Shown here: positions 36,702 through 51,159 of the stretch, one piece after another
How positions within the stretch are numbered: the first letter of the stretch is position 1
Layout of the letters: the number at the start of each line of letters is the position of its first letter
From: Ramlibacter alkalitolerans
GTDB lineage: Bacteria > Pseudomonadota > Gammaproteobacteria > Burkholderiales > Burkholderiaceae_C
Direction of reading: 5' to 3'
NCBI RefSeq assembly: GCF_016722765.1
Contig: NZ_JAEQND010000004.1
Coordinates: 1 to 64,000, forward strand
DNA: 64,000 nucleotides
The notes under the pieces: model-generated
Seen by the model: only the letters and a program-made list of their open reading frames with translations
Told to the model about the DNA's origin: nothing
Database searches by the model: none
Translations under genes and position numbers: made by a program

Positions 36702-38024
36702 ATGATCAGATACCTCAAGCGAGGCCGCGACGTGCAGGCCCGAAGTGCAGACGACGCCAAGGTGCGCGCCACCGTCGAGGGCATCATCCGCGACATCGAG
36801 CAGCGCGGCGATGAGGCGGTGCGCGAGTACAGCCGCAAGTTCGACCACTGGGACCCGGCGGACTTCCGGCTGTCTCAGGCGCAGATCGAGCAGGCCATGA
36901 AGAGCCTGACGGCGCGCGAACTGGAGGACATCCGCTTCGCCCAGGCGCAGATCCGCAACTTCGCGCAGGTGCAGCGCGACTCCATGCGCGACGTGGAAGT
37001 GGAGACGCGCCCGGGCGTGTTCCTGGGCCACCGCCACATCCCGGTGAACGCGGTGGGCTGCTACGTGCCCGGGGGCAAGTACCCCATGATCGCCTCGGCG
37101 CACATGAGCGCCCTCACGGCCAAGGTCGCCGGCGTGAAGCGCATCGTCGCCACCGCGCCGCCGTTCCAGGGCGCACCGCATCCGGCCATCGTCACGGCCA
37201 TGCACCTGGCGGGCGCCGACGAGATCCTGGTGCTGGGCGGCGTGCAGGCCGTGGTCGCGATGGCCGTCGGCACTTCGCTGCTGAAGCCGGTCGACATGCT
37301 GGTCGGACCCGGCAACATGTTCGTCGCCGAAGCCAAGCGCCAGCTGTTCGGCCGCGTCGGCATCGACCTGTTCGCCGGCCCCACCGAAACGCTGGTGATC
37401 GCCGACGACTCCGTGGATGGCGAACTGGTGGCCGTGGACCTGCTGGGCCAGGCCGAACACGGCCCCACCTCGCCCTCGGTGCTGCTGACCGACAGCGAGG
37501 CCCTGGCCCACGCCACGATGGCGGAGATCGAGCGCCAGCTGAAAATGCTGCCCACCGCGGCCATCGCGGCGCAGAGCTGGGCCGATTTCGGCGAGGTGAT
37601 CGTCTGCGACACCCGCGAGGAAATGCTGCAGAAGGCGGACGAACTCGCCTCCGAGCACGTCCAGGTGATGACGCGCGATGCGGACTTCTTCCTGGCCAAC
37701 ATGACCAACTACGGCGCGCTCTTCATCGGCCCGCGCACCAACGTGGCCTTCGGCGACAAGGTGATCGGCACCAACCACACCCTGCCCACCAACAAGGCGG
37801 CACGCTACACGGGCGGCCTGTGGGTCGGCAAGTTCCTCAAGACCTGCACCTTCCAGCGGGTGGAGACCGACGAAGCCAGCGCCCTGATCGGCGAGTACTG
37901 CTCGCGCCTGTGCCACATGGAGAACTTCGCCGGGCACGGCGAACAGGCCAACATCCGCGTGCGCCGCTACGGCACCCGCGCTGAAGTGCCCTGGTACCAG
38001 CCCGTGCCGGCGCTGGAGCCGTGA
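36702..38024 (+). CDS. HisD-family dehydrogenase, catabolic (HpsN-like)
   Basis: A 440-residue member of the histidinol dehydrogenase fold family. Zinc and catalytic sites are present: [13 protein letters not shown] (Gln and His ligands), [10 protein letters not shown] (catalytic Glu-His), [12 protein letters not shown] and a C-terminal His in [11 protein letters not shown]. The surrounding genes are not histidine biosynthetic. Known catabolic relatives include HpsN, an NAD-dependent sulfopropanediol dehydrogenase that makes a carboxylate from an alcohol in two steps. An alcohol-to-acid oxidation in a carbon-source pathway is therefore the best guess; substrate unknown. Two operators lie just upstream, and the stop overlaps the next gene. 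Confidence 0.88.
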
Positions 38025-38026
38025 GC

Positions 38027-38800
38027 ATGGGCACGCAGCCCCTGCCCTCCTTCCCGGGTTTCCGGGTGGACGGCAAGCGGGCCCTGGTCACCGGCGCCAG
38101 CCGCGGGCTGGGACTGGCCGCGGCCACGGCGCTGGCCCAGGCGGGCGCCGCCGTCACCCTGGCGGCGCGCTCGGCCGGGGAACTGGCGTCGGCCTGCGAA
38201 GCGATCCGGGCCCAGGGCGGCCACGCCGATGCCCTCGTTCTCGACGTCACCGATTCGAAGGCGGTTTCCGCCGCCCTCGCGGCGCGGCCCGCCTTCCACA
38301 TCCTCGTCAACAACGCTGGCATGAACCGGCCCAAGCCGCTGGCCGACACGCCCGACGAGGACATCGATGCGGTGTTCGACCTCAACGTGAAGGCCACCTT
38401 CTACGTCACGCGGACGGTGGCGCGCCGCATGGTGGCGGCCGGCGAGGGCGGCTCCATCATCAACGTCAGCTCGCAGATGGGCCACGTGGGCAGCCCGCGC
38501 CGCACGCTGTACTGCGCCAGCAAGCACGCGGTGGAAGGCATGACCAAGGCGCTGGCCTGGGAACTGGGGCCGGCCCGCATCCGGGTCAACACGGTCTGCC
38601 CGACCTTCATCGAGACCGCCTTCACGGCGCCCATGTTCGCCGACCCCGCCTTCCGCGACTTCGTCGTCGGCAGGATCGCGCTGGGCCGCATCGGCCGGGT
38701 CGACGAGGTGATGGGGCCCATCGTGTTCCTGGCCAGCGAGGCCTCCAGCCTCATGACCGGCAGCGCCCTGATGCTCGATGGGGGCTGGACGGCGGCATGA
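38027..38800 (+). CDS. Short-chain dehydrogenase/reductase
   Basis: A 257-residue classical SDR. Cofactor motif TGASRGLG (about residues 23-30), NNAG (about 90-93), catalytic Ser in INVSSQMGHVG and the YCASKHA (Tyr-x3-Lys) motif near residue 164. It ends SLMTGSALMLDGGWTAA, typical of the gluconate 5-dehydrogenase/3-ketoacyl reductase group. A GTG at 38021 overlaps the hisD-like stop (GTGA), but the ATG at 38027 has better spacing from GGAG and is preferred. The pair with the HisD-like enzyme suggests successive alcohol oxidations of a polyol or sugar acid. Confidence 0.92.
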   Translation: MGTQPLPSFPGFRVDGKRALVTGASRGLGLAAATALAQAGAAVTLAARSAGELASACEAIRAQGGHADALVLDVTDSKAVSAALAARPAFHILVNNAGMNRPKPLADTPDEDIDAVFDLNVKATFYVTRTVARRMVAAGEGGSIINVSSQMGHVGSPRRTLYCASKHAVEGMTKALAWELGPARIRVNTVCPTFIETAFTAPMFADPAFRDFVVGRIALGRIGRVDEVMGPIVFLASEASSLMTGSALMLDGGWTAA

Positions 38801-39822
38801 AAGCCAACCCCACGGCGCACGACGTGGCGCGGCTGGCGGGCGTGTCGCAGTCGGCGGTGAGCCGCGCCTTCACGGCCGGCGCCAGCGTGGCGCCGGCCAC
38901 GCGCGAACGCATCCTGGCGGCCGCCCGCGAGCTCGGCTACCGCCCCAATGCGATCGCCCGCACGCTCATCACGCGCCGCAGCCGCATCGTGGGTCTCGTC
39001 ATGAGCTACCTCGAGAACCAGTTCTATCCGCTGGTGATCGAGCGCCTGTCGCAGGCCCTGCAGCGCAATGGCTACCACGTGCTGCTGTTCATCTGCGAAA
39101 CCGCCGAGGCCGACGCCGTCCTGGCCGACATCCTCCAGTACCAGGTGGACGGCATCGTGATGGCTTCCACCACGCTGTCGTCCGGGCTGGCGCAGGACTG
39201 CGCCGAAGCCGGCATCCCGGTGGTGCTGTTCAACCGGGTGGCGCAGCTCGGCACCCTGGGCGGCTTCGCCACCAGCTCGGTCACCTCGCAGAACCGCGAG
39301 GGCGGCCGGCTGGTGGGCGAGATGCTGGTGCGCACCGGGCACCGGCGCGTCGCCTGGCTCGCCGGCCTGGAGAACGCCTCGACCAGCCTGGACCGCGAGG
39401 CGGGCCTGCGCGATGCGCTGGCCGAGGCCGGCATGGGGCTGCATGCGCGGGCCGTCGGCCGCTACGACTTCGCCGTGGCCCGGGAGGCCGTGCTCGCCTT
39501 GTTCCGCGATCCGGCCGACCGGCCCGACGCGCTCTTTGCCGCCAACGACCACATGGCCATCGCGGCGCTGGAGACGCTGCGCAGCGAGCTCGGCCTGAGC
39601 GTGCCGCAGGACGTCTCGGTCGTCGGCTTCGACAACGTGCCGCAGGCCGCGTGGCCCTCGTTCGCGCTGACCACGGTGCAGCAGGACGTGGACCGGATGG
39701 TGGAGGCCACCCGCGACCTGCTGTTCGAGCAGATCCACGGCGAGGTGATGGCCCGCAGCGTGACCGTCCCCTGCGCGCTGGTCGAACGCGGGACGGTGCA
39801 GACAAGGAAACGAGAGAGATGA
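38797..39822 (+). CDS. LacI-family transcriptional regulator
   Basis: A 341-residue protein: LacI helix-turn-helix and hinge at the N-terminus (TAHDVARLAGVSQSAVSRAF, GYRPNAIARTLITRRSRIVG), then a periplasmic-binding-like ligand domain (ENQFYPLVIERLSQALQRNG, FAANDHMAIAALETL, VSVVGFDNVPQAAWPSFALT). It is the third gene of the hisD-like operon with ATGA overlaps on both sides, so it probably autoregulates through the two operators at 36627-36676. The ligand is presumably a pathway intermediate or sugar acid. Confidence 0.93.
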   Translation: MKANPTAHDVARLAGVSQSAVSRAFTAGASVAPATRERILAAARELGYRPNAIARTLITRRSRIVGLVMSYLENQFYPLVIERLSQALQRNGYHVLLFICETAEADAVLADILQYQVDGIVMASTTLSSGLAQDCAEAGIPVVLFNRVAQLGTLGGFATSSVTSQNREGGRLVGEMLVRTGHRRVAWLAGLENASTSLDREAGLRDALAEAGMGLHARAVGRYDFAVAREAVLALFRDPADRPDALFAANDHMAIAALETLRSELGLSVPQDVSVVGFDNVPQAAWPSFALTTVQQDVDRMVEATRDLLFEQIHGEVMARSVTVPCALVERGTVQTRKRER

Positions 39823-40781
39823 CGGAAATCGAAGAACTCAGTCGCGGCCGTCCGGTCGCGATCGTGGGCGCCGGGCTGGTGGGCTCCGGCTGGGCCATCG
39901 TGTACGCGCGCGCCGGCCTGCGGGTGAAGATGTTCGACCGCGATCCGGAGATCACCCGCAAGGCCTTTGCGCTGATCGCGGGGCAGCTCGCCAGGCTGCA
40001 CGCGCACGGCCTGGTCGCCGAGGATCCGGCGGCCATCCTGGCGCGCATCACGCCGGCGGCGACGCTGGCCGACGCGGTCGAGGGCGCGTTCTACGTGCAG
40101 GAATCGGTGCTGGAGCGGGTCGACGTGAAGCGCCAGTTGATGATCGACCTGGACGCCCTCGCCGGCCCGGACCTGGTCGTCGGCAGCTCCACCTCCGGCA
40201 TCCCCGGCTCGGCGTTCGCGCTGGGGCTGGGCCTTTCGGCGCGGGTGCTGATCGTGCACCCGGTCAATCCGCCATACCTGGTGCCGGTGGTCGAACTGGT
40301 GCCGTCGCCGGAAACCGTGCCGGCCACCGTCGCCTTCGCCGATGCCCTGATGCGGGCGGTGGGCCAGGCCGTGGTGCACGTGCGCAAGGAGGTCGAGGGC
40401 TTCGTCCTGAACCGGCTGCAGGCGGTGCTGCTGCGCGAAGCGTGGGCCCTGGTGCAGGACGGCGTCGCGAGCTGCGAGGACATCGACAAGACGGTGCGCG
40501 ACGGCCTGGGCTGGCGCTGGTCCTTCATGGGCCCCTTCGAGACCATCGACCTGAATGCGCCGGGCGGGGTGGCCGACTACGCGGTGCGCCTCGGTCCGCT
40601 GTACCAGCGCATTGCCGATTCGCGCCGCCATCCGCAGCCCTGGGACGAGGGCCTGATCCGGGAGGTCGAGGCGCAGCGCCGCGAACGCCTGGGCCGCGAC
40701 GAACTCGAAGCGCGCCGCGCCTGGCGCGACGAGCGCCTGATGGCCTTCGCGGCACGCCGCAACGCGGCTTCGGACGACTGA
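39819..40781 (+). CDS. 3-Hydroxyacyl-CoA dehydrogenase-family enzyme (L-gulonate/hydroxy-acid dehydrogenase type)
   Basis: A 320-residue protein with the N-terminal Rossmann motif VAIVGAGLVGSGWAIVYARA and the 3HCDH C-terminal domain (VRKEVEGFVLNRLQAVLLRE, LGWRWSFMGPFETIDLNAPG). The catalytic His lies in LIVHPVNPPYLVPVVELVPS, a form shared with lambda-crystallin/L-gulonate 3-dehydrogenase rather than FadB-type enzymes. It probably oxidises a free 3-hydroxy acid with NAD. It is the last gene of the first catabolic operon; the convergent sigma54 regulator ends 11 bp away. Confidence 0.88.
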   Translation: MTEIEELSRGRPVAIVGAGLVGSGWAIVYARAGLRVKMFDRDPEITRKAFALIAGQLARLHAHGLVAEDPAAILARITPAATLADAVEGAFYVQESVLERVDVKRQLMIDLDALAGPDLVVGSSTSGIPGSAFALGLGLSARVLIVHPVNPPYLVPVVELVPSPETVPATVAFADALMRAVGQAVVHVRKEVEGFVLNRLQAVLLREAWALVQDGVASCEDIDKTVRDGLGWRWSFMGPFETIDLNAPGGVADYAVRLGPLYQRIADSRRHPQPWDEGLIREVEAQRRERLGRDELEARRAWRDERLMAFAARRNAASDD

Positions 40782-40792
40782 CGCCGTCGGCG

Positions 40793-42772
40793 TCAGCCGG
40801 CCTGCTCCTGCTGCAGCCAGCGCCACAGCGTGCTGCGGCTGACGCCCAGCGCGCGCGCCGCGGCCTGCCGGTTGCCGCCATGCTGCTGCAGCGCCTGCCG
40901 GGCCAGCGAGGGGCGCATGTCGGCGGCCGCGGCCGGCAGCTCGGGCAGGATCGCGATCGGGGGCAGCGGCACGGGCGCCGACGCGCGCGGCATCGGAGCG
41001 GTCGCGCCGAACAGCTCGGGGCAGTCCTGCACCAGGCCGCTCCAGTCGATAGCCTCGCCGGGGCCGAACTGCAGCAGGAACACGGCCAGCCGTTCGCAGA
41101 TGTTCTCCAGCTCGCGCACGTTGCCGGGCCAGTCGTAGGCCTGCAGGCGCGGCATCAGTTGCCGCAGCGCGGCTGGCGTGGAGTCGGCGGAACCCAGGCG
41201 CGCCAGGCAGCGCTGCACCCGGCGTTCGGCCATCAGGGCAACGTCGCCGGCCCGCTCCCGCAGCGGCGGCAGGGACAGCCGCAGGGTGTTGATGCGGAAG
41301 TACAGGTCCTGCCGGAAGCGGCCCTGCGCCACCATCTCCGCCAGCGGCTGGTGGGTGGCCGCGATCACGCGCACGTCCACCGGCACCGGTTCGGCGCTGC
41401 CCACCCGCAGCACCTCGCGTTCCTGCAGCACCCGCAGCAGCCGGGTCTGCAGCGAGGTCGGCATGTCGCCGATCTCGTCGAGGAACAGGGTGCCGGTGTG
41501 CGCCGCCTCGAACAGGCCGCGCTTGCCGCCGCGCCGGGCGCCGGTGAAGGCGCCCTCTTCGTAGCCGAAGAGTTCGCTCTCCAGCAGGCTCTCCGGGAAG
41601 GCGGCGCAGTTGACGGCGACGAAAGGCCGGTTGGCCCGGGTGCCCTCGTTGTGGATCGCCTGCGCGAAGAGCTCCTTGCCGGTGCCGCTCTCGCCGGCGA
41701 TGAGGATGGTGAGGTCGGTGCGGGCGAAGCGCCGGGCGCTGGCCACCGCGCGCAGCAGCGCCGGGCTCTGCCCCTCCAGGTCGTCGAAGCTGTGGCGCGC
41801 GGCGGCCTGCTGGCGGCGCTGCTGCATGCGCAGACGGGTGTCGGCTTCGTGGATGGAGCGGGCGTCGTACAGGGTGAGCGCGGCGCCCACCACCTCGCCG
41901 CGCACCCGCACCGGGGCGCGCCGGGCCACCCAGTTGCGCCGGCCTATGTGCAGGACGACGCCGCCCTCCGACACGCCGCTGGTCAGGGTCTCGCGCAGCG
42001 ACAGCTCCGGCTGCAGCGCCGAGAGCTCGCGTCCCAGCAGGCTGCCCGTATCCGCGCCGAGGATGCGTTGCATGGGCGGGTTCATCGCGATCACGTGGTG
42101 GCTGCGGTCGACGGCCAGCACCGCGTCGTCCAGCGTATGCAGCACCGCGCCGAGCTGGGCGTGGCGCTCGGCCTCCATGCGCGCCACGCGGGCCAGCTCG
42201 ATGGCGTCCTCGAAGCCCTGGCGGATGCTGGCCTGCGAGTAGGCCAGCAGGCCGCACAGGCCCGCGGCCTCCGCCATCTCCACGACGATGCTGGAGCCCA
42301 CGATCACCGAGAACCCCTCCGCCCGCAGCGCCTCCACGCTGCGGCGGGCATCGTCGGGCGTCTGGTAGGCGTACTGGGCGATCTCGAGGCGCAGCAGGTT
42401 TTTCACCGCCTCCAGGTCGGGAAGGGTCTGGCCGTAGACCACCACGCCCACCCGGCGTGAGCTGCGGCGCGCGGTGATCAGGGCCTGCAGGATGTCCAGC
42501 CCGGCGAGCTGGATGGTGGCCACGGGCGCGCGGACCTGCCGGCGCAGCAGGCCGGCGTTGGCGCCGGCGCTGATGAACGCATCCACCAGGCCCTGTTCGA
42601 CCCGCTGCCGCGCCAGCGCCACCGTCTGGCTCACGGTGCCGTCGACCAGCTCGATCTCGGCCCGGTCGCGGTACTGCTCGATGACGGGCGCGGAAAACTC
42701 CCGCAGGTGGCGGTAGCCGAGGAAGCAGAGGCGCGGCAGACGGGGCGGGGCCGCAAAGACGTCGGAGGTCAT
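40793..42772 (-). CDS. PrpR-type sigma54-dependent activator
   Basis: A 659-residue enhancer-binding protein. Residues about 15-190 form a PrpR_N sensor domain (LCFLGYRHLREFSAPVIEQY, YAYQTPDDARRSVEALRAEG), then a PAS domain (about 210-300), a central AAA+ domain with Walker A GESGTGKELFAQAI, the sigma54-contact loop EGAFTGA and Walker B GTLFLDEIGDMP, and a FIS-type HTH (GNRQAAARALGVSRSTLWRW). PrpR itself senses 2-methylcitrate. The start MTSDVFAA at 42770-42772 is chosen to exclude the operator region from the protein. It diverges from a -24/-12 promoter of the Bug/hydratase/lyase genes, its likely target. Confidence 0.93.
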   Translation of the reverse strand: MTSDVFAAPPRLPRLCFLGYRHLREFSAPVIEQYRDRAEIELVDGTVSQTVALARQRVEQGLVDAFISAGANAGLLRRQVRAPVATIQLAGLDILQALITARRSSRRVGVVVYGQTLPDLEAVKNLLRLEIAQYAYQTPDDARRSVEALRAEGFSVIVGSSIVVEMAEAAGLCGLLAYSQASIRQGFEDAIELARVARMEAERHAQLGAVLHTLDDAVLAVDRSHHVIAMNPPMQRILGADTGSLLGRELSALQPELSLRETLTSGVSEGGVVLHIGRRNWVARRAPVRVRGEVVGAALTLYDARSIHEADTRLRMQQRRQQAAARHSFDDLEGQSPALLRAVASARRFARTDLTILIAGESGTGKELFAQAIHNEGTRANRPFVAVNCAAFPESLLESELFGYEEGAFTGARRGGKRGLFEAAHTGTLFLDEIGDMPTSLQTRLLRVLQEREVLRVGSAEPVPVDVRVIAATHQPLAEMVAQGRFRQDLYFRINTLRLSLPPLRERAGDVALMAERRVQRCLARLGSADSTPAALRQLMPRLQAYDWPGNVRELENICERLAVFLLQFGPGEAIDWSGLVQDCPELFGATAPMPRASAPVPLPPIAILPELPAAAADMRPSLARQALQQHGGNRQAAARALGVSRSTLWRWLQQEQAG

Positions 42773-42782
42773 GTTCCAGCAA

Positions 42783-42823
42783 TGTTGCAGAGCGCAACGC
42801 GATTGTTGCACGGATCTGCAACA
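42783..42823. promoter_or_regulatory. Upstream activating sites of the sigma54 regulon
   Basis: TGTTGCA-CGGATC-TGCAACA (42804-42823) is a perfect 7-bp inverted repeat. A second, shorter one, GTTGC-AGAGC-GCAAC, lies at 42784-42798, and more TGCAAC boxes follow to about 42842. They are 60-100 bp upstream of the -24/-12 promoter and 11-51 bp from the regulator's own start, so autoregulation is likely. Confidence 0.7.
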
Positions 42824-42883
42824 CCGCAACACCGATGCAACACGAGCTTCCATAAGAATCAAGCACTTGCGCGTTGCAAGGGG

Positions 42884-42899
42884 CTGGCACGGGTTCTGC
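42884..42899 (+). promoter_or_regulatory. Sigma54 (-24/-12) promoter
   Basis: CTGGCACGGGTTCTGC matches the consensus TGGCAC-N5-TTGC with a single change (CTGC for TTGC) and correct spacing. It is 65 bp upstream of the first Bug gene and directly faces the divergent sigma54 activator. Confidence 0.8.
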
Positions 42900-42963
42900 G
42901 AAACAGAGGCCCTGCCCCGCCAGCCGGCTCGCCCGCTGGACCCGCAAGCACCAGGAGACAAGC

Positions 42964-43947
42964 ATGCAGAACACCCCGCCCGCCCTGACCGGCGCCTTCA
43001 ACCGCCGCACCGCCCTCGGCGGCCTCGCCGCCCTGGCGCTCGCCAGGCCCACCCTGGCCGCCGGCTATCCCGCCAAGACCGTGACGCTGGTCGTGCCCTA
43101 TTCGCCCGGCGGCGGCACCGACATCGTGGGGCGGCAGCTCGCCCAGAAGCTGAGCGACCGCTGGGGCCAGTCGGTGGTGGTGGACAACCGCACCGGTGCC
43201 AACGGCGTGATCGGCTCCAGCCTGGTCTCCAAGGCGCAGCCGGATGGCTACACACTGCTGCTGGTGGTGGGCTCGCACGCGGTCAATCCGGTCCTGATGA
43301 AGAAGATGCCGTACGACACCCTGACGGCCTTCACGCCCATCACCAACGTGGCGACCTCGCCCATGGTGCTGGTGGTCTCGGCCAAGGGCCCCTACAAGAC
43401 GCTGCCGGACGTGCTCAAGGCGGCCCGCACCGAGGAACTGGGCGTCGGCAACTCGGAAGGCCAGACGCGGCTCACCGGCGAACTGATGCGCCAGGTCGCC
43501 GGCCTGAAGACCGTGGAGGTGTTCTACAAGGGCGGCGCGCCCATGATGGTGGACGTCATCGGCGGCCACCTTCCCATGGGCTTCACCAGCGTGCTGACCG
43601 CCCTGCCCCACGTGCAGGCCGGCAACCTGCGCGTGGTGGGCGTGGCTTCGCGCGAGCGGCTCAACGTGTTCCCGGACGCGATGACCTTCGCCGAAGCCGG
43701 CGTGCCGGGCATCGAGTCCCTGAGCTGGTACGGCATGTTCGGCCCGGCCGGCATGCCGCCCGCGCTGGTGGAGCAGATCGGCCGTGACCTGCGTGCCGTC
43801 GCCAACGAACCCGCCGTGGCGAACCAGCTGCGTGACCAGGGCGCCCAGCTGGTCCTGAGCAGCCCCGCCGACCTCGATCGCTTCCTGCGCAGCGAAGCCG
43901 CCAAGTGGGCCACCGTCGCCCAGCGCGGCGGCATCAAGCCCGAATGA
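42964..43947 (+). CDS. Bug-family tripartite tricarboxylate receptor (first)
   Basis: A 327-residue periplasmic binding protein. The N-terminus NRRTALGGLAALALARPTLA resembles a Tat-type signal (twin Arg). Mature-domain landmarks are YPAKTVTLVVPYSPGGGTDI, WGQSVVVDNRTGANGVIGSS and VFYKGGAPMMVDVIGGHLPM. Bug (TctC) proteins bind carboxylates such as citrate or aromatic acids and feed TctAB-type permeases, or act as sensors. No TctA/TctB genes are in the window. The gene is first behind the sigma54 promoter, with AGGAG before the ATG. Confidence 0.93.
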   Translation: MQNTPPALTGAFNRRTALGGLAALALARPTLAAGYPAKTVTLVVPYSPGGGTDIVGRQLAQKLSDRWGQSVVVDNRTGANGVIGSSLVSKAQPDGYTLLLVVGSHAVNPVLMKKMPYDTLTAFTPITNVATSPMVLVVSAKGPYKTLPDVLKAARTEELGVGNSEGQTRLTGELMRQVAGLKTVEVFYKGGAPMMVDVIGGHLPMGFTSVLTALPHVQAGNLRVVGVASRERLNVFPDAMTFAEAGVPGIESLSWYGMFGPAGMPPALVEQIGRDLRAVANEPAVANQLRDQGAQLVLSSPADLDRFLRSEAAKWATVAQRGGIKPE

Positions 43948-43982
43948 GCGTCCCGTCCCAACAACTCCGGAGACATCGCACC

Positions 43983-44975
43983 GTGAACCTGCCCCTCCCG
44001 ACCGCCCGCCGCCGCCTGCTGGCTGCCGCCCTTGCCGTGGCTGCCTGCGGCGTGACCACCGCCCACGCTCAGGACAAGTACCCCAGCCGGCCCATCCGCC
44101 TGGTCGTGCCCTTCGCCACCGCCGGCGTCACCGACACCAGCGCCCGCATCGTGGCCGAGAAGCTCAGCCACGAACTGGGCCAGCAGGTGGTGGTGGACAA
44201 CAAGCCCGGCGCGGCGGGCAACATCGGCACCCAGATGGTGGCCAATGCCGAACCGGACGGCTACACCCTGCTGCTGGCCTACGACGGCACGCTGGTGATC
44301 AACCCCAGCGTGTACGCCAAGGTGCCCTTCGACCCGGTCAAGGACTTCGCCCCGATCGGCAAGATCGGCGACGCCGTCCTGATCGTGGTGGTCAATCCCA
44401 AGGTCCAGGCCACCAACCTGGCCGAGCTGCAGGCGGTGGCCAAGGCCACGCCCGGCGGCCTCTCCTACGGCAGCGCCGGCACCGGCGCCACCACGCACAT
44501 CGCGGGCGAGATGCTGAAGCAGCGCACCGGCATTCCCCTCGTCCACGTGCCCTACAAGGGCGGCGGCCAGGCCATGGGCGACGTGGTGAGCGGCGTCCTG
44601 CCGATGAACTTCACGGCCGTGGCGGGCGCCATGCCCTTCATCCAGAGCAAGCAGCTGCGCCCGATCGCCGTGGCCTCGCGCCAGCGCGTGGCCTCGCTGC
44701 CGAACGTGCCCACGTTCATCGAATCGGGCCTGAAGGACTTCGAGATCAACTCCTGGGTCGGTCTGGCGGCGCCGGCCCGCACGCCGGCGCCGGTGATCGC
44801 CCGGCTCAACCAGGCCCTGAACAAGGTGCTGGGCACGCCGGAAATGCGCGAGCGCCTGGCCAAGCTGGGCATCGTGGCGCAGCCCAACACGCCCGCGGCC
44901 TTCGGCGAGGAGATCGTGCGCGACCTGGCGAAGAACAAGGCCATCGTGAAGGCCGCCGACATCCGGATCGACTGA
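43983..44975 (+). CDS. Bug-family tripartite tricarboxylate receptor (second), GTG start
   Basis: A 330-residue Bug protein beginning at the GTG at 43983-43985, eight bases or so after GGAG; the following TARRRLLAAALAVAACGVTT AHAQ is a signal peptide. Landmarks: YPSRPIRLVVPFATAGVTDT, LGQQVVVDNKPGAAGNIGTQ, VHVPYKGGGQAMGDVVSGVL. It differs from the first receptor in the pocket loop (ATAGVTDT instead of SPGGGTDI), so it may bind another ligand. It is 9 bp from the LeuC-like gene, which suggests that the ligand is the hydratase substrate. Confidence 0.93.
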   Translation: MNLPLPTARRRLLAAALAVAACGVTTAHAQDKYPSRPIRLVVPFATAGVTDTSARIVAEKLSHELGQQVVVDNKPGAAGNIGTQMVANAEPDGYTLLLAYDGTLVINPSVYAKVPFDPVKDFAPIGKIGDAVLIVVVNPKVQATNLAELQAVAKATPGGLSYGSAGTGATTHIAGEMLKQRTGIPLVHVPYKGGGQAMGDVVSGVLPMNFTAVAGAMPFIQSKQLRPIAVASRQRVASLPNVPTFIESGLKDFEINSWVGLAAPARTPAPVIARLNQALNKVLGTPEMRERLAKLGIVAQPNTPAAFGEEIVRDLAKNKAIVKAADIRID

Positions 44976-44984
44976 CCCGCCTCG

Positions 44985-46388
44985 ATGACGACGCTGTTCG
45001 ACAAGATCTGGGCCGCCCACGCGGTGGCCCGCAACGAAGCCGGCGATGACCTGGTCTACATCGACCGGCACCTGGTGCAGGAGGTGTCGAGCCCGCAGGC
45101 CTTCGCCAGCATGAAGGCCTCCGGGCATGGCCTGCGCTCGTCCGCCCGCCACATCGCGGTGCAGGACCACAACGTGCCGACCAGCGCCGACCGGCTGGTG
45201 AACATCCCCAACGCGGAGAGCGCCGAGCAGATCGCCACCTTGCGCCGCAACACGCAGGCCACCGGCATGCGCCTGCTGGACCTGGACGACCCGCTGCAGG
45301 GCATCGTGCACGTGATCGCTCCGGAACTGGGCTTCGTGCTGCCGGGCAGCACCGTCGTCTGCGGCGATTCGCACAGTGCCACGCTGGGCGCCATGGGCGC
45401 GCTGGCGTGGGGGATCGGCACCTCCGAAGTCGCCCACGTGATGAGCACCCAGGGCCTGTGGATGCGCAAGCCGCGCACCCTGGGCATCGAGGTGTCCGGC
45501 GCGCTGGGCCCGGGCGTCTACGCCAAGGACCTGGCGCTGGCCCTGATCCACCACATCGGCACCAGCGGCGGCGTCGGCCACGGCATCGAGTACTTCGGCC
45601 CCGCGGTCGCGGCGCTCTCCATGGAAGCGCGGCTGACGCTGTGCAACATGACGATCGAGGCCGGCTCCCGCTTCGGCCTGGTGGCGCCCGACGCCACCAC
45701 CCTCGCCTACCTGCGCGAGCGGGTCCAGGGCCCGGCCCGCGAGCATTTCGAGCGCGCTGCCCAGGCCTGGGCCACGCTGCGAACCGACGCCGCGACCGAT
45801 TTCGACCGCCTCGTGCGGTTCGACGCCGCCACGGTCACCCCGCGCGTCACCTGGGGCACGACCCCCGCCGACAGCGCCGCCTTCAGCGGCCGGGTGGGCG
45901 ACGGCACGACGCCGGCCGATGCGGCCGAACGCAGCCGGATCGAGAAGAGCCTGGCCTACATGGGCCTGCAGCCCGGGCAGGCGCTGTCGTCGGTGCCCAT
46001 CGACGTGGCCTTCATCGGCTCCTGCACCAACGGCCGCCTCGAGGACCTGCGTGCCGCCGCCGCAGTCGCCCGCGGCCGCCGCGTCGCGGCCGGCGTGCGC
46101 GCCCTGGTGGTGCCGGGCTCGGGCAGCGTCAAGCGCGCGGCGGAAGCCGAGGGGCTGGCACAGGTCTTCGTGGATGCCGGCTTCGAATGGCGCGAGCCCG
46201 GCTGCTCGATGTGCATCGGCATGAACGGCGACAGCCTGGCGCCCGGCCAGCGCTGCGCGTCCACCTCCAACCGCAATTTCGAGAACCGGCAGGGCCAGGG
46301 CGGACGCACCCACCTCATGAGCCCGGCCGCCGCGGCCGCCTCCGCCCTGCGCGGCACGCTGACCGATCCCCGGGAGTTCCTGTCATGA
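44985..46388 (+). CDS. Aconitase-family hydratase, large subunit (LeuC-like)
   Basis: A 467-residue LeuC-type subunit. The 4Fe-4S cluster ligands are seen as VAFIGSCTNGRLEDL and EWREPGCSMCIGMNGD (Cys-x2-Cys); the substrate-site GDSHSATLGAMGALAWGIGT is present. With the next gene it forms a two-subunit hydro-lyase. It is not in a leucine operon: the neighbours are Bug receptors, a C-C lyase and a sigma54 activator. Dimethylmaleate hydratase (DmdAB) of nicotinate fermenters is a LeuCD-like enzyme coupled to an isocitrate-lyase-family lyase, and is a reasonable model. Isopropylmalate isomerase as a second copy cannot be ruled out. Confidence 0.9.
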   Translation: MTTLFDKIWAAHAVARNEAGDDLVYIDRHLVQEVSSPQAFASMKASGHGLRSSARHIAVQDHNVPTSADRLVNIPNAESAEQIATLRRNTQATGMRLLDLDDPLQGIVHVIAPELGFVLPGSTVVCGDSHSATLGAMGALAWGIGTSEVAHVMSTQGLWMRKPRTLGIEVSGALGPGVYAKDLALALIHHIGTSGGVGHGIEYFGPAVAALSMEARLTLCNMTIEAGSRFGLVAPDATTLAYLRERVQGPAREHFERAAQAWATLRTDAATDFDRLVRFDAATVTPRVTWGTTPADSAAFSGRVGDGTTPADAAERSRIEKSLAYMGLQPGQALSSVPIDVAFIGSCTNGRLEDLRAAAAVARGRRVAAGVRALVVPGSGSVKRAAEAEGLAQVFVDAGFEWREPGCSMCIGMNGDSLAPGQRCASTSNRNFENRQGQGGRTHLMSPAAAAASALRGTLTDPREFLS

Positions 46389-46990
46389 AGGCCGTCACCG
46401 CCCAGGTGTCCGGGCGCGCGGCCCTCATGCAGCGCGACGACATCGACACCGACGCCATCTTCCCCGGCCGCTTCCTGCGCCTCGTGCAGCGGGACGGCAT
46501 GGGCGTGCACCTGTTCGCCGACTGGCGCGCCGAAGGCCGGCCCGAGGTCGGCTTCATGCAGCGCCCGGAGCCGGCGCGCCTCATCGTGGGTGCGCAGAAC
46601 TTCGGTTGCGGCTCCTCGCGCGAGCATGCCGTGTGGGCCCTGGCCGACTACGGCGTGCAGGCGGTCTTGGCCCTGTCCTTCGGCGACATCTTCCGCAACA
46701 ACTGCGTGAAGAATAGCGTGGTGGCCGCCACCGTCACGCCGGCCGACCATGCCACGCTGCTGCAGGCGCTCGCCGCGGCGCCCGAGGGCGTGCTGCGCCT
46801 GGACGTCGCCACGCGCTGCCTGCACCTGCCCGACGGCCGCCAGCTGCCCGTGACGCTGGCCGAGGGCCATGCCGAACAGCTGCTGTCCTCCGAGGACGAA
46901 GTGGACCGCACCCTGCGCCACGACGCCGCGCTGCGCGCGTACGAAGAGCGCGTGCGCCAGCAGCAGCCCTGGCTCGCCTCCATCGCCTGA
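46385..46990 (+). CDS. Aconitase-family hydratase, small subunit (LeuD-like)
   Basis: A 201-residue LeuD-type swivel subunit. RDDIDTDAIFPGRFLRLVQR (residues about 17-36) and IVGAQNFGCGSSREHAVWAL (about 68-87) hold the substrate-binding Ser-Arg. FGDIFRNNCVKNSVVAA follows. The ATG overlaps the large-subunit stop as ATGA, so the subunits are made together. It completes the hydratase suggested to act on a branched maleate- or malate-type acid. Confidence 0.92.
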   Translation: MKAVTAQVSGRAALMQRDDIDTDAIFPGRFLRLVQRDGMGVHLFADWRAEGRPEVGFMQRPEPARLIVGAQNFGCGSSREHAVWALADYGVQAVLALSFGDIFRNNCVKNSVVAATVTPADHATLLQALAAAPEGVLRLDVATRCLHLPDGRQLPVTLAEGHAEQLLSSEDEVDRTLRHDAALRAYEERVRQQQPWLASIA

Positions 46991-47021
46991 TCCCCTTTCC
47001 AGAATCCACCGAAAGCCCGCA

Positions 47022-47885
47022 ATGGCCAATCCCATCCTCCGTCAGAAGCTCGCCGCCGGCGAATTCCTCGTCATCCCCGGTGTGCAGGACATGATCGCCA
47101 CCGTCATGACCAACAAGGTCGGCTTCGACATCGTCTACGGCACCGGCTACTGGCTCACCGCCTCCGCGCTGGGCCTGCCCGACGCCGGCATCGCCACCTA
47201 CACCCAGATGGTCGACCGCATGCGCACGGTGGTGCGCACCAGCAGTGCGGCCCTGATCGCCGACGCCGACACCGGCTACGGCGGCCTGCTGAACGTGCAC
47301 CACACCGTGCGCGGCTACGAGGAAGCCGGCGTGACCGCCATCCAGATCGAGGACCAGGAGTTCCCCAAGAAGTGCGGCCACACGCCCTACAAGCGCTGCG
47401 TGCCGACCGAGGACATGGTGGAGAAGATCAAGGTCGCCGCCGAGGCCCGCGAGGACAAGGAGAACTTCCTGATCATCGCCCGCACCGACGCCCGCGCCAG
47501 CCTGGGCGTGGACGAGGCGATGCGCCGCATGGAGGCCTACGCGAAGGCCGGCGCCGACATCCTGTTCTTCGAGGCGCCGCAATCCGAGGAGGAGATGCGC
47601 CGCGCCTGCGAGGCCTTCGACAAGCCCATGCTGGCCAACATGGCCGACGGCGGCAAGACGCCCATCCTGCCGGCCAAGGTGCTGCAGGAGATCGGTTATG
47701 CGCTGGCGATCTATCCCTCGATGACCAGCCTGGTGGCCGCGGCCGCCATGGAAAAGGCGCTGCGCACGCTGAAGGAGCAGGGCGTGAGCCAGGCCCCCGG
47801 CATCGACATGTTCGACTTCGGCGAGTTCTGCAAGCTGATCGGCTTCCAGGAAGTCTGGGACTTCGAGAAGCGCTGGGCCCGCTGA
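47022..47885 (+). CDS. Isocitrate lyase/PEP mutase superfamily C-C lyase
   Basis: A 287-residue TIM-barrel enzyme. The catalytic loop KKCGHTPYKRCVP (about residues 116-128) has the KKCGH motif with the acid/base Cys used by isocitrate and 2-methylisocitrate lyases; metal-binding acids are in IADADTGYGG and IQIEDQEFPKKCGH. Length matches PrpB and 2,3-dimethylmalate lyase, which cleave branched acids to pyruvate plus succinate or propionate. Next to a LeuCD-type hydratase and a PrpR-type regulator, a hydratase-lyase pair that splits a substituted malate is the simplest reading. Carboxyphosphonoenolpyruvate mutase activity is less likely because KKCGH is retained. Confidence 0.88.
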   Translation: MANPILRQKLAAGEFLVIPGVQDMIATVMTNKVGFDIVYGTGYWLTASALGLPDAGIATYTQMVDRMRTVVRTSSAALIADADTGYGGLLNVHHTVRGYEEAGVTAIQIEDQEFPKKCGHTPYKRCVPTEDMVEKIKVAAEAREDKENFLIIARTDARASLGVDEAMRRMEAYAKAGADILFFEAPQSEEEMRRACEAFDKPMLANMADGGKTPILPAKVLQEIGYALAIYPSMTSLVAAAAMEKALRTLKEQGVSQAPGIDMFDFGEFCKLIGFQEVWDFEKRWAR

Positions 47886-47901
47886 AGAAAGGAGGCCGGA
47901 C

Positions 47902-49038
47902 ATGAAGACGCGCGCAGCCGTCCTCGGCGCCATGGGCGCCGCCCGTCCGTACGCGACGAGCCGTCCCTTGCGCATCGAGGAGGTCGACCTGGCCCCGCCG
48001 GGGCCGGGCGAGGTGCTCATTCGCATCGCGGCCGCCGGCCTGTGCCATTCGGACCTCTCGGTGATCAACGGCGACCGGCCGCGGCCCATGCCGATGGCCC
48101 TGGGCCACGAGGCCTCGGCGGTCGTGGTCGAGACCGGCGCCGGCGTGGCGGACCTGCACGCGGGTGACCACGTGGTGGTGATCTTCATGCCCAGTTGCGG
48201 CCATTGCCTGCCCTGCGCCGAAGGCCGTCCCGCCCTGTGCGAGCCGGGCGCGGCCGCCAACGGCGCGGGCACCCTGCTGTCCGGCGCGCGGCGCATCTCT
48301 CACGTGGGCCACGCGATCAATCACCACCTGGGCTGCTCGGTGTTCGCCGAACACGCGGTGGTCTCGCGCCATTCGCTGGTGCGCATAGCCCGCGACATCC
48401 CCCTGGTGGAAGCCGCCCTCTTCGGCTGCGCCGTGCTGACCGGCGTGGGCGCCGTCATCAACACCGCGCGGGTGCCGGCTGGCGCCTCGGTGGCGGTGGT
48501 CGGCCTCGGCGGCGTCGGCCTGGCGGCCCTGCTCGGTGCCCATGCCGCGGGCGCGCGGCAGATCGTGGCCATCGACCTGTCGGACGACAAGCTCGCCCAT
48601 GCGCGCAAGCTGGGCGCCACCCACACGATCAACGCCAGCCTGCCCGATGCGCGCGAGCAGGTGCGCGCGCTCTCCGGCGGCGGCGTCGAATACGCCTTCG
48701 AATTCGCCGGCTCGGTGCGGGCGCTCGAACTGGCCTACGGCATCACCGCGCGCGGCGGCACCACGGTCACCGCCGGACTGCCGCCCGCCAGCGCGATGCT
48801 GCCGGTGCCGGCCGTCAGCCTGGTCGCGGAGGAGCGCACGCTCAAGGGCAGCTACATCGGCACCTGCGTGCCGGCGCGCGACATCCCGCGCTACCTCAGC
48901 CTCTGGCGCCAGGGCCGGCTGCCGGTCGACCAGTTGCTCACCGGCACGCTGCGGCTGGACCAGATCAACGAGGCCTTCGATCAGCTGCACGAGGGCAAGG
49001 CCATCCGGCAGGTGGTGGTCTTCGACCAGACGTCGTGA
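47902..49038 (+). CDS. Zinc-dependent alcohol dehydrogenase (MDR superfamily)
   Basis: A 378-residue medium-chain dehydrogenase of the class III/benzyl alcohol type. Catalytic-zinc ligands lie in GLCHSDLSVINGDRP and LGHEASAVVVETGAG; the structural-zinc lobe is CGHCLPCAEGRPALC (four Cys). The NAD(H) site is VAVVGLGGVGLAALLGAHAA. The ATG follows GAAAGGAGG and the stop overlaps the next regulator (GTGA). It may oxidise an alcohol that enters the pathway, or reduce an aldehyde formed by the lyase. Substrate unknown. Confidence 0.93.
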   Translation: MKTRAAVLGAMGAARPYATSRPLRIEEVDLAPPGPGEVLIRIAAAGLCHSDLSVINGDRPRPMPMALGHEASAVVVETGAGVADLHAGDHVVVIFMPSCGHCLPCAEGRPALCEPGAAANGAGTLLSGARRISHVGHAINHHLGCSVFAEHAVVSRHSLVRIARDIPLVEAALFGCAVLTGVGAVINTARVPAGASVAVVGLGGVGLAALLGAHAAGARQIVAIDLSDDKLAHARKLGATHTINASLPDAREQVRALSGGGVEYAFEFAGSVRALELAYGITARGGTTVTAGLPPASAMLPVPAVSLVAEERTLKGSYIGTCVPARDIPRYLSLWRQGRLPVDQLLTGTLRLDQINEAFDQLHEGKAIRQVVVFDQTS

Positions 49039-50081
49039 CCATCAGCGCGGCCCGGGATGCGCCCACCGGCGGCGCGGGCACCCTGCGCGCCATCGCCGGG
49101 CACCTGGGGCTGTCGGTCTCCACCGTCTCGCGCGCGCTCTCGGGCCACCCGGCCATCAGCGCGCGCACCCGCGAAGCGGTGATCGCGGCCGCCACGCAGG
49201 TGGGCTACCGCTTCCCGGCCCAGGGCCGTGGCCGCGTGGGCGGCACCCGCATGGTGGGCGTGGTGGTGGGCGCGCTGCACAACACCTTCATGACGCTGCT
49301 GCTGCAGCACCTGCACGACGCCCTGCAGGGCGCCGGCTACCAGGTCGTGCTGCTGATCGATCCCATGACCGACCCCGAGCGGCTGCTGGCGTTCCGGCCG
49401 CTGATCGAGAGCTATCTCGACGGCCTGATCTTCGCGACCGCGACGCTGGACTCCCCCATCGTCGGCGAAGTCCGCCGCCGCGGCATTCCGACCGTGCTGG
49501 TGGTGCGCAGCGTGGAGGACGTCGGCGTGGACACCGTGGAGGTGGACAACTTCCGGGCCGGCGAGGAAGCGGTGCGCCACCTGCTCGCGCTGGGCCATCG
49601 CCGCCTCGGCTTCATCATGGGGCCGGAGAACACCTCCACCAGCCGCAACCGCGTGGCCGGCGCGCTGCGGGCCCTGCAGCAGGCTGGCCTGGACCCCGGG
49701 ACGGCGCAGCTGGTGTGGGGCGAGTACACGGCCGAAATGGGCTATTCCAAGGCGATGGCCCTGATGGCCGTGCCGCAGCCCGTCACGGCCGTCGTGGCCG
49801 GCAACGACACCATCGCGCTGGGCGTGCTCGAGGCCGCCCGCGCCTGCGGCCGCGCGGTGCCGCAGGAACTGTCGGTGATCGGCTTCGACGACATGCCGCT
49901 GGCGGGTTCTCCCATCGTGGGCCTGACGTCCATTCGCCAGCCCGTGGAGGCCATGGCGCGCACCGCGGCGCGGCGCCTGCTCGATCGCATGCGCCCCGGC
50001 CAGGCCATCAGCCCGGCTTCGCACGACGTGCTGCCGATCGAGCTCATACGCCGGGGCACCACGGGCCCGGCCCGCGCGTGA
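49035..50081 (+). CDS. LacI-family transcriptional regulator (second), GTG start
   Basis: A 348-residue LacI protein. HTH: GTLRAIAGHLGLSVSTVSRA, then GYRFPAQGRGRVGGTRMVGV; effector domain with GFIMGPENTSTSRNRVAGAL and LSVIGFDDMPLAGSPIVGLT. The GTG at 49035-49037 overlaps the dehydrogenase stop. A LacI-like palindrome at 50110-50123 lies 29 bp after its stop, before the third Bug gene, which it probably controls. Confidence 0.92.
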   Translation: MTISAARDAPTGGAGTLRAIAGHLGLSVSTVSRALSGHPAISARTREAVIAAATQVGYRFPAQGRGRVGGTRMVGVVVGALHNTFMTLLLQHLHDALQGAGYQVVLLIDPMTDPERLLAFRPLIESYLDGLIFATATLDSPIVGEVRRRGIPTVLVVRSVEDVGVDTVEVDNFRAGEEAVRHLLALGHRRLGFIMGPENTSTSRNRVAGALRALQQAGLDPGTAQLVWGEYTAEMGYSKAMALMAVPQPVTAVVAGNDTIALGVLEAARACGRAVPQELSVIGFDDMPLAGSPIVGLTSIRQPVEAMARTAARRLLDRMRPGQAISPASHDVLPIELIRRGTTGPARA

Positions 50082-50109
50082 CGCTGCCGGCGCCAGGGAA
50101 CGACCCTAG

Positions 50110-50123
50110 CGTTTGCGCAAGCG
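50110..50123 (+). promoter_or_regulatory. LacI-type operator candidate before the third Bug gene
   Basis: CGTTTGC-GCAAGCG is a 14-bp palindrome with one mismatched pair and a central CG. It lies between the second LacI gene and the Bug gene at 50170. Confidence 0.5.
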
Positions 50124-50169
50124 TTGCATCCGCATTTCACCGACAGTGGATCCCATGCAAGGAACCAGG

Positions 50170-51159
50170 ATGCCCGCTCTTTCCAACTCTCCTCTGAAGC
50201 GCAACGTCTGCGCCATGGCCGTCGCCAGCCTGTGCGCGCTCGCCGCACCCTCGCACGCCGAAGCGCAGCCCGCGTGGAAGCCCACCCGCCCCGTCACCAT
50301 CGTCGTGCCCTACGTGCCCGGCGGCGGAACCGACACCACGGCCCGCGCCACCGCCAGGCTCCTGGGTGAACTCTGGGGCCAGCCGGTGGTGGTGGAGAAC
50401 CTGCCCGGCGCCGACGGCCTCATCGGCGGGCGGCGCGTGATCGAGGCCCGCGCGGACGGCCACACGCTGCTGCTGCAGACCCCGGCCATCGTGCTCACCA
50501 AGCACGCGCCCTCGTTCAAGGGACCCGATCCGCTGGCGCGACTGCTGCCGGTGACGAACATCGCGCAGTCGCCGGGCGTCATCGTGGCCAATGCGAAGAT
50601 CCCGGCGAGCACGCTGCCGGAGCTGGTCGCCTGGTGCAAGAGCGCAGCGACGCCCTGCTCCATGGGCACCGGCGAGAACGTCGCCAAGCTGTTCGGCCGG
50701 CAGTTGCAGGCCGAGGTGCTGCCCAACCTCATCGTCGTCAACTACAAGGGCACCTCGGCGATCATCACCGACATGATCGCCAACAACGTGAACTTCGCCG
50801 TGACCGGCATCACCTCCGCCCTGCCGCACCAGAAGGCCGGCACGCTGAAGGTGCTCGCGAGCCAGGGCAGCAAGCGCCACAGCGCCGCGCCCGACGTGCG
50901 CACGGTGGGCGAGACCGGCATGGCGCAGTACGAGTACACCACCTGGTTCGGCCTGTTCGCGCCCAACGAGACGCCGCCCGCGGTGGCCAAGGGCATCTAC
51001 GCCGCGGTGCAGGAAGTCATGCGCAATCCCGAACTGCAGAAGGCCATCGCGGCGGCCGGCGCGACTCCGCTCGTCAACACGCCCGAGGAATTCGCCGAGC
51101 AGGTTCGCAAGGAAGACGAACGCTTCACCAGCCTGGCACGCCGCTTCCCGCTCGACTGA
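50170..51159 (+). CDS. Bug-family tripartite tricarboxylate receptor (third)
   Basis: A 329-residue Bug protein. The ATG at 50170 follows AAGGA by six bases; another at 50155 is possible. A signal peptide (NVCAMAVASLCALAAPSHAE A) precedes WKPTRPVTIVVPYVPGGGTD. Further landmarks: WGQPVVVENLPGADGLIGGR, VVNYKGTSAIITDMIANNVN. The two extra Cys residues (AWCKSAATPCSMG) could form a disulfide. It has its own upstream palindrome and so may be expressed apart from the main operon. No permease genes are adjacent. Confidence 0.93.
   Translation: MPALSNSPLKRNVCAMAVASLCALAAPSHAEAQPAWKPTRPVTIVVPYVPGGGTDTTARATARLLGELWGQPVVVENLPGADGLIGGRRVIEARADGHTLLLQTPAIVLTKHAPSFKGPDPLARLLPVTNIAQSPGVIVANAKIPASTLPELVAWCKSAATPCSMGTGENVAKLFGRQLQAEVLPNLIVVNYKGTSAIITDMIANNVNFAVTGITSALPHQKAGTLKVLASQGSKRHSAAPDVRTVGETGMAQYEYTTWFGLFAPNETPPAVAKGIYAAVQEVMRNPELQKAIAAAGATPLVNTPEEFAEQVRKEDERFTSLARRFPLD

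Follow-up and report, generated by a model that had tools for sequence, protein, structure and literature searches.

The window analyzed here, a stretch of 64,000 nucleotides from Ramlibacter alkalitolerans (positions 1 to 64,000 of contig NZ_JAEQND010000004.1), carries a gene cluster in which a two-subunit hydratase of the LeuCD type stands beside a lyase with a KKCGH motif, together with Bug/TctC receptors, dehydrogenases, and a PrpR-type activator. The cluster is real and coherent and probably a catabolic module, and on balance its gene families and their context favor a role in the catabolism of a small, branched (that is, substituted) diacid with a C4 backbone. An earlier inspection of the letters alone (the sequence-only reading) had placed a possible pathway of this kind at positions 42964 to 49038, and family scans confirmed the gene content given for it: two Bug receptors, LeuC, LeuD, the KKCGH lyase, an alcohol dehydrogenase (ADH), and the PrpR-type activator. 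Its logic was right, but its extent was incomplete: hisD, SDR, lacI, and HCDH upstream, and a second lacI and a third Bug gene downstream, had been missed, and the cluster runs from 36702 to 51159, beyond that core on both sides.

In the scheme that we favor, the Bug receptors would bind the branched diacid and an unlinked TctAB-type carrier would import it. The LeuCD-type hydratase, judged by family and context, would interconvert a substituted maleate and a substituted malate, and the KKCGH lyase, judged by its family, would split the malate in a retro-aldol reaction into a carboxylic acid and a 2-oxo acid, the latter being pyruvate, 2-oxobutyrate, or glyoxylate as set by the position of the substituent. 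The SDR, HCDH, ADH, and HisD-like enzymes would oxidize an alcohol, either on the side chain or on the cleavage product. The PrpR-type activator would switch on bug1-bug2-leuCD-lyase-adh through a -24/-12 promoter, and the LacI proteins would govern the remaining genes. The features are as follows.

36702 to 38024, + strand: HisD-like dehydrogenase, a paralogue (TIGR00069, 446 bits against a cut-off of 244)
38021 to 38800, + strand: SDR-family oxidoreductase (SDR-type models; order kept in relatives)
38797 to 39822, + strand: LacI-family regulator 1 (named by eye; homologues, cluster 13, in the equivalent place in relatives)
39819 to 40781, + strand: HCDH, 3-hydroxyacyl-CoA dehydrogenase family, lambda-crystallin type (NF004783, 424 against 347 bits)
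40793 to 42772, - strand: PrpR-type sigma54 activator (TIGR02329, 555 against 499 bits; start at 42772 placed by eye from a relative, with a longer frame reaching 42853)
42780 to 42842, no strand: TTGCA/TGCAAC repeat region, a candidate activator site (read by eye, no statistics)
42885 to 42900, + strand: putative sigma54 -24/-12 promoter, TGGCACG-N4-CTGCG (10 of 12 consensus positions)
42964 to 43947, + strand: Bug/TctC receptor 1 (PF03401 TctC, 204 bits; starts with ATG)
43944 to 44975, + strand: Bug/TctC receptor 2 (PF03401, 231 bits)
44985 to 46388, + strand: LeuC-type hydratase large subunit (TIGR00170, 610 bits against a cut-off of 560)
46388 to 46990, + strand: LeuD-type hydratase small subunit, loop PGRFLR (TIGR00171, 126.5 against 116 bits)
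47022 to 47885, + strand: KKCGH lyase, isocitrate lyase/phosphoenolpyruvate (ICL/PEP) mutase superfamily, motif YGTGYW (PF13714, 146 bits)
47902 to 49038, + strand: Zn-dependent ADH, class III/NDMA-like (Pfam ADH_N and ADH_zinc_N; solved relatives; its stop closes the 42964 to 49038 interval)
49038 to 50081, + strand: LacI-family regulator 2 (family scans)
50158 to 51159, + strand: Bug/TctC receptor 3 (PF03401, 138 bits)

The main evidence is recurrence. Ninety lyase loci were pooled, 76 from a scan of a genome collection and 14 from plasmid records (14 of the 37 records with a match, three of the 14 being unannotated), and were sorted by lyase identity into group A (at least 78%, 26 loci), group B (58-78%, 56 loci), and group C (lower, 8 loci); 73 of the loci are at least 15 kb long and 17 are shorter. 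LeuC flanks the lyase in 52 of the 90, and thus the linkage of lyase and LeuCD exceeds chance, from which, by our estimate, one aconitase-family gene per 21 kb would be expected in about 3% of cases (about nine places in 5.71 Mb). The neighborhood seeds were drawn partly from the loci being counted, so that these figures, like those below, describe co-occurrence and are not independent predictions; moreover, L123 and L124 are near-copies, and L109 and L111 are similar. A dehydrogenase of the Zn, Fe, or HCDH type is found in 54 of the 90. Within group A, Bug receptors occur in 23 loci, LeuC in 16 (14 of these at least 75% identical to the window LeuC), HisD in 15, HCDH in 13, PrpR in 5, an isochorismatase-type amidase in 4, and the ADH seed in only 3. 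Hence the proposal that Bug receptors, LeuCD, lyase, and ADH make up the whole pathway is not supported, with HisD and HCDH recurring nearly as often as LeuC and the ADH rarely.

Gene order points the same way. In 9 of the 26 closest loci the row hisD-SDR-HCDH-bug2-leuC-leuD-lyase-bug3 lies on one strand: L044 (Ramlibacter, with Bug1 also), L045, L048, L050, L053, L055 (Cupriavidus), L049 (Variovorax), L052 (Acidovorax), and L058 (Bordetella genomosp. 12). A LacI gene precedes HCDH in the relatives with this order, and L056 has the conserved row from HCDH onward. Relative to that row the window has PrpR, ADH, and LacI2 as extras, and a Pseudorhodoferax locus (L051) reads PrpR-bug1-bug2-leuCD-lyase, with the HisD block absent; the window therefore looks like a composite of two cluster forms. 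A homologue of Bug3, at 74-88% identity, follows the lyase in ten relatives, and in Skermanella GntR, TctC, TctB, TctA, LeuC, LeuD, and lyase are adjacent to one another. The names of many neighboring genes were judged by eye, on the opening residues of their products. With the lyase (E up to 1e-120) in 6 of 399 genomes of the family, including the window's own, the cluster is accessory; no such lyase was found among the five other genomes of the genus listed.

The hydratase subunits exceed the cut-offs of both leucine-biosynthesis models (TIGR00170 and TIGR00171), and this makes the window LeuCD look like leucine genes. The obvious question, whether the pair is the cell's only isopropylmalate isomerase, is answered in the negative: a second pair stands in the row leuC-leuD-leuB-asd on contig C31 of the same genome (LeuB and Asd being assigned by eye on their N-terminal residues), and the window LeuC does not group with biosynthetic copies. 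A tree was built from 72 LeuC rows (a quick method with Shimodaira-Hasegawa-like approximate likelihood ratio test support only, midpoint-rooted for drawing). In it the window copy falls within a group of 21 with support 100, and the biosynthetic copy of the cell, with five other genome copies, stands in a separate group with support 99. A third group, of 29 rows with support 99, consists mostly of LeuC near or flanking sphingomonad and other lyases. At least two LeuC groups, neither of them the biosynthetic one, thus serve as partners of this lyase subfamily, and this, together with the pairing in many genomes, supports the proposed logic of hydration followed by C-C cleavage. A loop in LeuD tells a similar story. 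In archaeal enzymes this loop governs specificity; P[GA]RFLR is found in 14 of 16 group A LeuD proteins, and PARFL in 26 of 36 in group B (with PSREM in 8 of the remaining rows), whereas the cell's biosynthetic LeuD has PKQFLK, unlike the window's PGRFLR. The window LeuD falls under the LeuD/DmdB model TIGR02087 (75 against 109 bits) and is not a DmdAB small subunit by that measure.

The lyase belongs to the ICL/PEP mutase superfamily by its PF13714 match, the Cys of K[KR]CGH, its Asp residues, and its fold. In this family the Cys of the motif is catalytic and the Asp residues bind metal; Cys 118, Asp 81, and Asp 83 are invariant across 31 aligned lyase rows. It is below cut-off for all 8 NCBIfam models listed, the best being the PrpB equivalog TIGR02317 (261 against 354 bits). 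Among solved relatives the highest sequence scores go to 4iqd (205 bits), petal death protein (187), and PrpB (172), and a Foldseek search with the AlphaFold model (mean predicted local distance difference test score 91, predicted template modeling score 0.89) puts 4iqd and 4iqe on top, followed by petal death protein, so that sequence and fold agree on 4iqd and petal death protein as the closest solved relatives. The PrpB chains compared read SGGG and either ANLTEFG or ANITEFG at the places where TGYW and ANMADGG stand in the window lyase (the ANM motif being taken from the alignment). The motif YG[TS]GYW is present in 24 of 28 lyase copies in group A and 48 of 57 in group B, and in none of 9 in group C. 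Ramlibacter sp. Leaf400 has the closest named relative, at 94%. Substituted malates are cleaved by both petal death protein and dimethylmalate lyase; PMC7609661 lists Lu 2005 and Narayanan 2009 among its references.

Control by sigma54, also part of the sequence-only reading, is supported at the level of sequence because the -24/-12 site is conserved in loci linked to PrpR. The activator has the Pfam domains PrpR_N, PAS, Sigma54_activat (sigma54 interaction), and HTH_8, which place it in the PrpR family, and its gene is divergent from the bug1-adh genes. In all 6 PrpR-linked loci examined (the window, L051, L062, L120, L121, and L122), a site scoring 10 to 11 of 12 lies 45-79 bases ahead of the first gene, while the best score in L044, which has no PrpR match, is 5; the comparison leaves out L116, which has a PrpR-like match at 37%. 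As background, 7 sites score at least 10 across the whole 64 kb on both strands with the identical fixed GG/GC filter. The TTGCA/TGCAAC repeats just upstream may be the activator's binding site; by eye, similar repeats occur in L051, and a GTTTCA/TGAAAC version in L062 and L120-L122.

The genes from bug1 to LacI2 overlap or are closely spaced (43944/43947, 46388/46388, 47885/47902, and 49038/49038), so a single transcript is plausible. Starts and stops also overlap in the hisD-SDR-lacI-HCDH block, which shares its strand with bug1-adh. The HisD-like protein is predicted to oxidize a primary alcohol to an acid; the same genome has a stronger TIGR00069 match (518 bits) on contig C1, likely the cell's biosynthetic HisD. 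The SDR protein matches 210 SDR-type models, none of the 25 listed above cut-off, and the ADH is under cut-off for every one of 21 NCBIfam models listed. The nearest solved chains to HCDH are lambda-crystallin and then FHMPC 5-dehydrogenase. Three window proteins are TctC/Bug members by PF03401, and the window genome has 8 TctA matches.

Some relatives carry further genes that bear on the substrate. In Pigmentiphaga (L057 and L088; lyase 86% identical), a PnpA/HspB-like monooxygenase, an amidase, an Amdase-like protein, HisD (86-87% identical to the window's HisD-like protein), LeuC, LeuD, lyase, and an Fe-ADH follow one another on one strand. The amidase scores 224 bits over 200 residues against 3ot4 and 3uao, and only 126 against N-carbamoylsarcosine amidohydrolase; 3ot4 is annotated in its structure file as a putative isochorismatase, and 3uao we take to be NicF, maleamate amidohydrolase. 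The Amdase-like protein clears the Pfam Amdase cut-off. In three other genomes (G787, G788, and G789) the window-type lyase has no adjacent LeuCD, and a LeuCD 72-73% identical to the window's stands in a row of monooxygenase, second lyase, NicF-like amidase, Amdase, LeuC, and LeuD. LeuCD, lyase, and a Zn-ADH come after an isochorismatase-type amidase and PuuE-like hydrolases on pJE1 and also in Novosphingobium (L090). These neighbors indicate a substituted maleate, and the simplest reading of the relatives is amide hydrolysis to a maleate, hydration, and cleavage. Hence the maleate-type substrate suggested from the letters gains from the NicF-like amidases of some relatives, but the choice among citraconate, itaconate, dimethylmaleate, and other acids is one that sequence does not make.

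More tentatively, LeuCD plus a lyase of the YG[TS]GYW type could form a lower pathway for substituted maleates that is aerobic, widespread, and so far undescribed, in which N-heterocycles or cyclic imides would be opened and de-amidated upstream by a monooxygenase, a PuuE-like or HyuAB hydrolase, and a NicF-like amidase, the window version starting at the imported, de-amidated acid. Tetrapyrrole-derived maleimides are one possible source, given the PuuE-like hydrolases beside isochorismatase-type amidases; of 276 papers matched on this subject, none of the 20 listed concerns bacterial breakdown, to judge by titles and abstract openings. Fusaric-acid-like alkylpyridines are a passing thought without evidence, and purine- or hydantoin-like roles for the HyuAB, PuuE-like, and HpxO-like proteins of sphingomonads are further possibilities.

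Several observations weigh against this picture. No LeuC was found in the flanks of 38 of the 90 lyase loci (17 of the 90 being under 15 kb), and two of the 52 LeuC matches (L127 and, standing apart, a second copy in L058, L058_17750) are about 30% identical and sit on very long branches. Ten genomes have a lyase that is 78-90% identical, and only 6 of them also have a LeuC of at least 73%; the best in the other four are 57% (G683), 54% (G325), 54% (G350, a single copy), and 53% (G786, a single copy), and 53-54%, as in G350 and G786, is where biosynthetic copies fall. In G787-G789 the unlinked LeuD has PAQ[YF]LK and not P[GA]RFLR. PrpB, oxaloacetate acetylhydrolase, and 2,3-dimethylmalate lyase come close behind in Foldseek, and fold does not separate them from the window lyase. 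As for the maleamate connection, an amide-type hydrolase (isochorismatase-type, PuuE-like, or HyuA) lies near only 41 of the 90 loci, and with the amidase in only 4 of 26 group A loci the window is tied to it indirectly; the resemblance of the Amdase-like protein to maleate isomerases is weak. The window genome gave no Amdase-like match (in a search without a positive control), and for the NicF-like protein the best isochorismatase-family match there reaches 41% identity, so the window pathway's own substrate probably arrives already as an acid. Moreover, CaiB and HMG-CoA-lyase-like genes occur in 11 of the 90 loci, and 6 of these (L062, L072, L114, L120, L121, and L122) have no LeuC and are left unexplained by our scheme, though the genome of L062 (G790) has a 90% identical LeuC elsewhere.

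The layout in L120, L121, L122, and L062 is PrpR-CaiB-HMG-CoA-lyase-like-Bug-lyase-Bug, without LeuCD in the flanks; in L122 the final Bug is preceded by a hydrolase gene. The L121 CoA transferase is similar, though under cut-off, to those for oxalate, glutarate, and mesaconate.

Of the other ways to read the cluster, the likeliest is catabolism of 2-alkylmalates. Citramalate or 2-isopropylmalate would enter and be converted by LeuCD to a 3-alkylmalate, from which the lyase would form glyoxylate and a fatty acid, or the 2-alkylmalate would be split directly. This isomerization is the usual reaction of the LeuCD family, petal death protein, which with 4iqd is nearest to the lyase, cleaves 2-alkylmalates, the Skermanella unit of transporter, LeuCD, and lyase would suit such a route, and the CaiB and HMG-CoA-lyase-like neighbors in some relatives could process the acid product. 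It leaves unexplained, however, both the NicF-like amidases and the monooxygenases that accompany LeuCD and lyase in relatives and the HisD, SDR, and HCDH genes, and we regard it as rather doubtful.

A tricarboxylate route, with LeuCD and lyase acting on an aconitate/isocitrate-like acid (isocitrate, 2-methylisocitrate, or a homologue) to give succinate or a homologue and glyoxylate or pyruvate, seems improbable. The regulator is of the PrpR type, the PrpB model tops the lyase's NCBIfam matches (yet under cut-off), PrpB structures are near in fold, and the Arg of the LeuD loop (FLR) could hold an extra carboxylate as it does in archaeal homoaconitase; against this, the lyase motifs differ from those of the PrpB chains, and the window genome has nothing above cut-off for the PrpB, AcnD, and PrpC models. 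Since those three models find no match above cut-off in the genome, the methylcitrate cycle was rejected, and a standard methylcitrate role for the cluster is unlikely. Very improbable indeed is the reading in which LeuCD serves leucine synthesis as a spare isopropylmalate isomerase, with the lyase being an enzyme of some side activity (an oxaloacetate or 2-oxo acid hydrolase) and the neighbors unrelated: the subunits do exceed the leucine-biosynthesis cut-offs, but leuCDB-asd lies elsewhere, the window LeuC falls in a separate group, and the linkage of LeuCD to receptors and lyase recurs across genera. If catabolism of a substituted diacid is the true role, LeuCD beside a YG[TS]GYW-type lyase should not count as leucine genes, and a class of substituted diacids acquires a genetic route; names from leucine biosynthesis and PrpR mask what is apparently a catabolic module in many Proteobacteria.

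Some further loci deserve mention in their own right. In the window genome, contig C28, on which the window itself lies, has (at 290000-295000; L130) a second, diverged aconitase-family protein, a KRCGH lyase 38% identical to the window's, and a Bug; contig C32 (188000-192000; L129) has a third LeuC-LeuD pair behind a Bug receptor, with the LeuD loop PKQYLR; and contig C23 (14000-48000; L131 and L167) has an island with a 52% identical lyase of the YMTGYG type. The island also holds CitE-like, HMG-CoA-lyase-like, and two CaiB-like proteins, two isochorismatase-family matches, transporters, and LeuD-like and LeuC-like matches, mostly named by eye. In L068, L069, L091, L092, and others, from sphingomonads and Alteromonadales, a methyltransferase-domain protein of about 407 residues, followed by a 120-residue protein with no Pfam match, lies near the lyase. 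Near-identical catabolic islands occur in L123 (Sphingomonas sp. JE1) and L124 (Sphingobium sp. TomTYG65), on plasmids typed mobilizable and conjugative, respectively, so the lyase-LeuCD module sits on plasmids that may move.

How does the cluster compare with known systems? Among the open-license papers listed, titles and abstract openings gave no description of a LeuCD-lyase module. The methylcitrate cycle (PrpR-PrpB-PrpC-AcnD) shares with the window a PrpR-type activator and a lyase of one superfamily, and differs in having the three enzymes that the window genome lacks above cut-off. The label "2,3-dimethylmalate lyase" by itself proves nothing, since excerpts of two papers apply it also to lyases placed in methylcitrate pathways (PMC9804861 and PMC8471276). 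The Ict-Ich-Ccl route of Pseudomonas for itaconate and citramalate is like the window cluster in that its substrates are branched short-chain dicarboxylates, but it is CoA-dependent, according to an excerpt of PMC9875883. Its set of CoA transferase, MaoC-type hydratase, and CitE-type lyase was not recognized between 36.7 and 51.2 kb in open reading frames and family scans, and only some relatives carry genes in that style, the CaiB and HMG-CoA-lyase-like pair. Petal death protein is the closest solved chain to the window lyase after the uncharacterized 4iqd; with the fungal 2,3-dimethylmalate lyase/oxaloacetate acetylhydrolase it shares with that lyase KKCGH, a GY after the S/T-G motif, ANMxxGGKTP, and a C-terminal match, whereas the window lyase has the extra Trp of YG[TS]GYW, D for E in ANMADGG, and a bacterial cluster with a hydratase.

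The DmdAB dimethylmaleate hydratase and 2,3-dimethylmalate lyase act in nicotinate fermentation and, like the window pair, join a two-subunit aconitase-family hydratase to a lyase of the ICL/PEP mutase superfamily. The window hydratase differs in passing the LeuC and LeuD models and falling below LeuD/DmdB, and the window cluster in its apparently aerobic host and its added receptors, HisD, SDR, HCDH, and putative sigma54 control. The lower pathway of nicotinate and nicotine uses the maleamate amidase NicF and the maleate isomerase NicE, with HspB, and is echoed in some relatives only, where NicF-like amidase, Amdase-like, and PnpA/HspB-like monooxygenase genes accompany LeuCD and lyase. There the maleate would meet a hydratase and a lyase instead, and no such NicF-, Amdase-, or HspB-like genes were seen in the window cluster itself; NicX and NicD were not recognized, though no search was aimed at them. 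A further precedent in logic is the alkylmaleate route of gentisate degraders, whose maleate hydratase is HbzIJ and for which Hopper, Chapman and Dagley reportedly described, in 1971, hydration of alkylmaleates and cleavage of alkylmalates. No gentisate genes were recognized in the window, and we know of no gene for the alkylmalate cleavage step in those organisms, but the two-step logic is identical to that proposed here; if the substituted-maleate lower pathway is real, it would supply genes for an alkylmalate cleavage seen biochemically decades ago.

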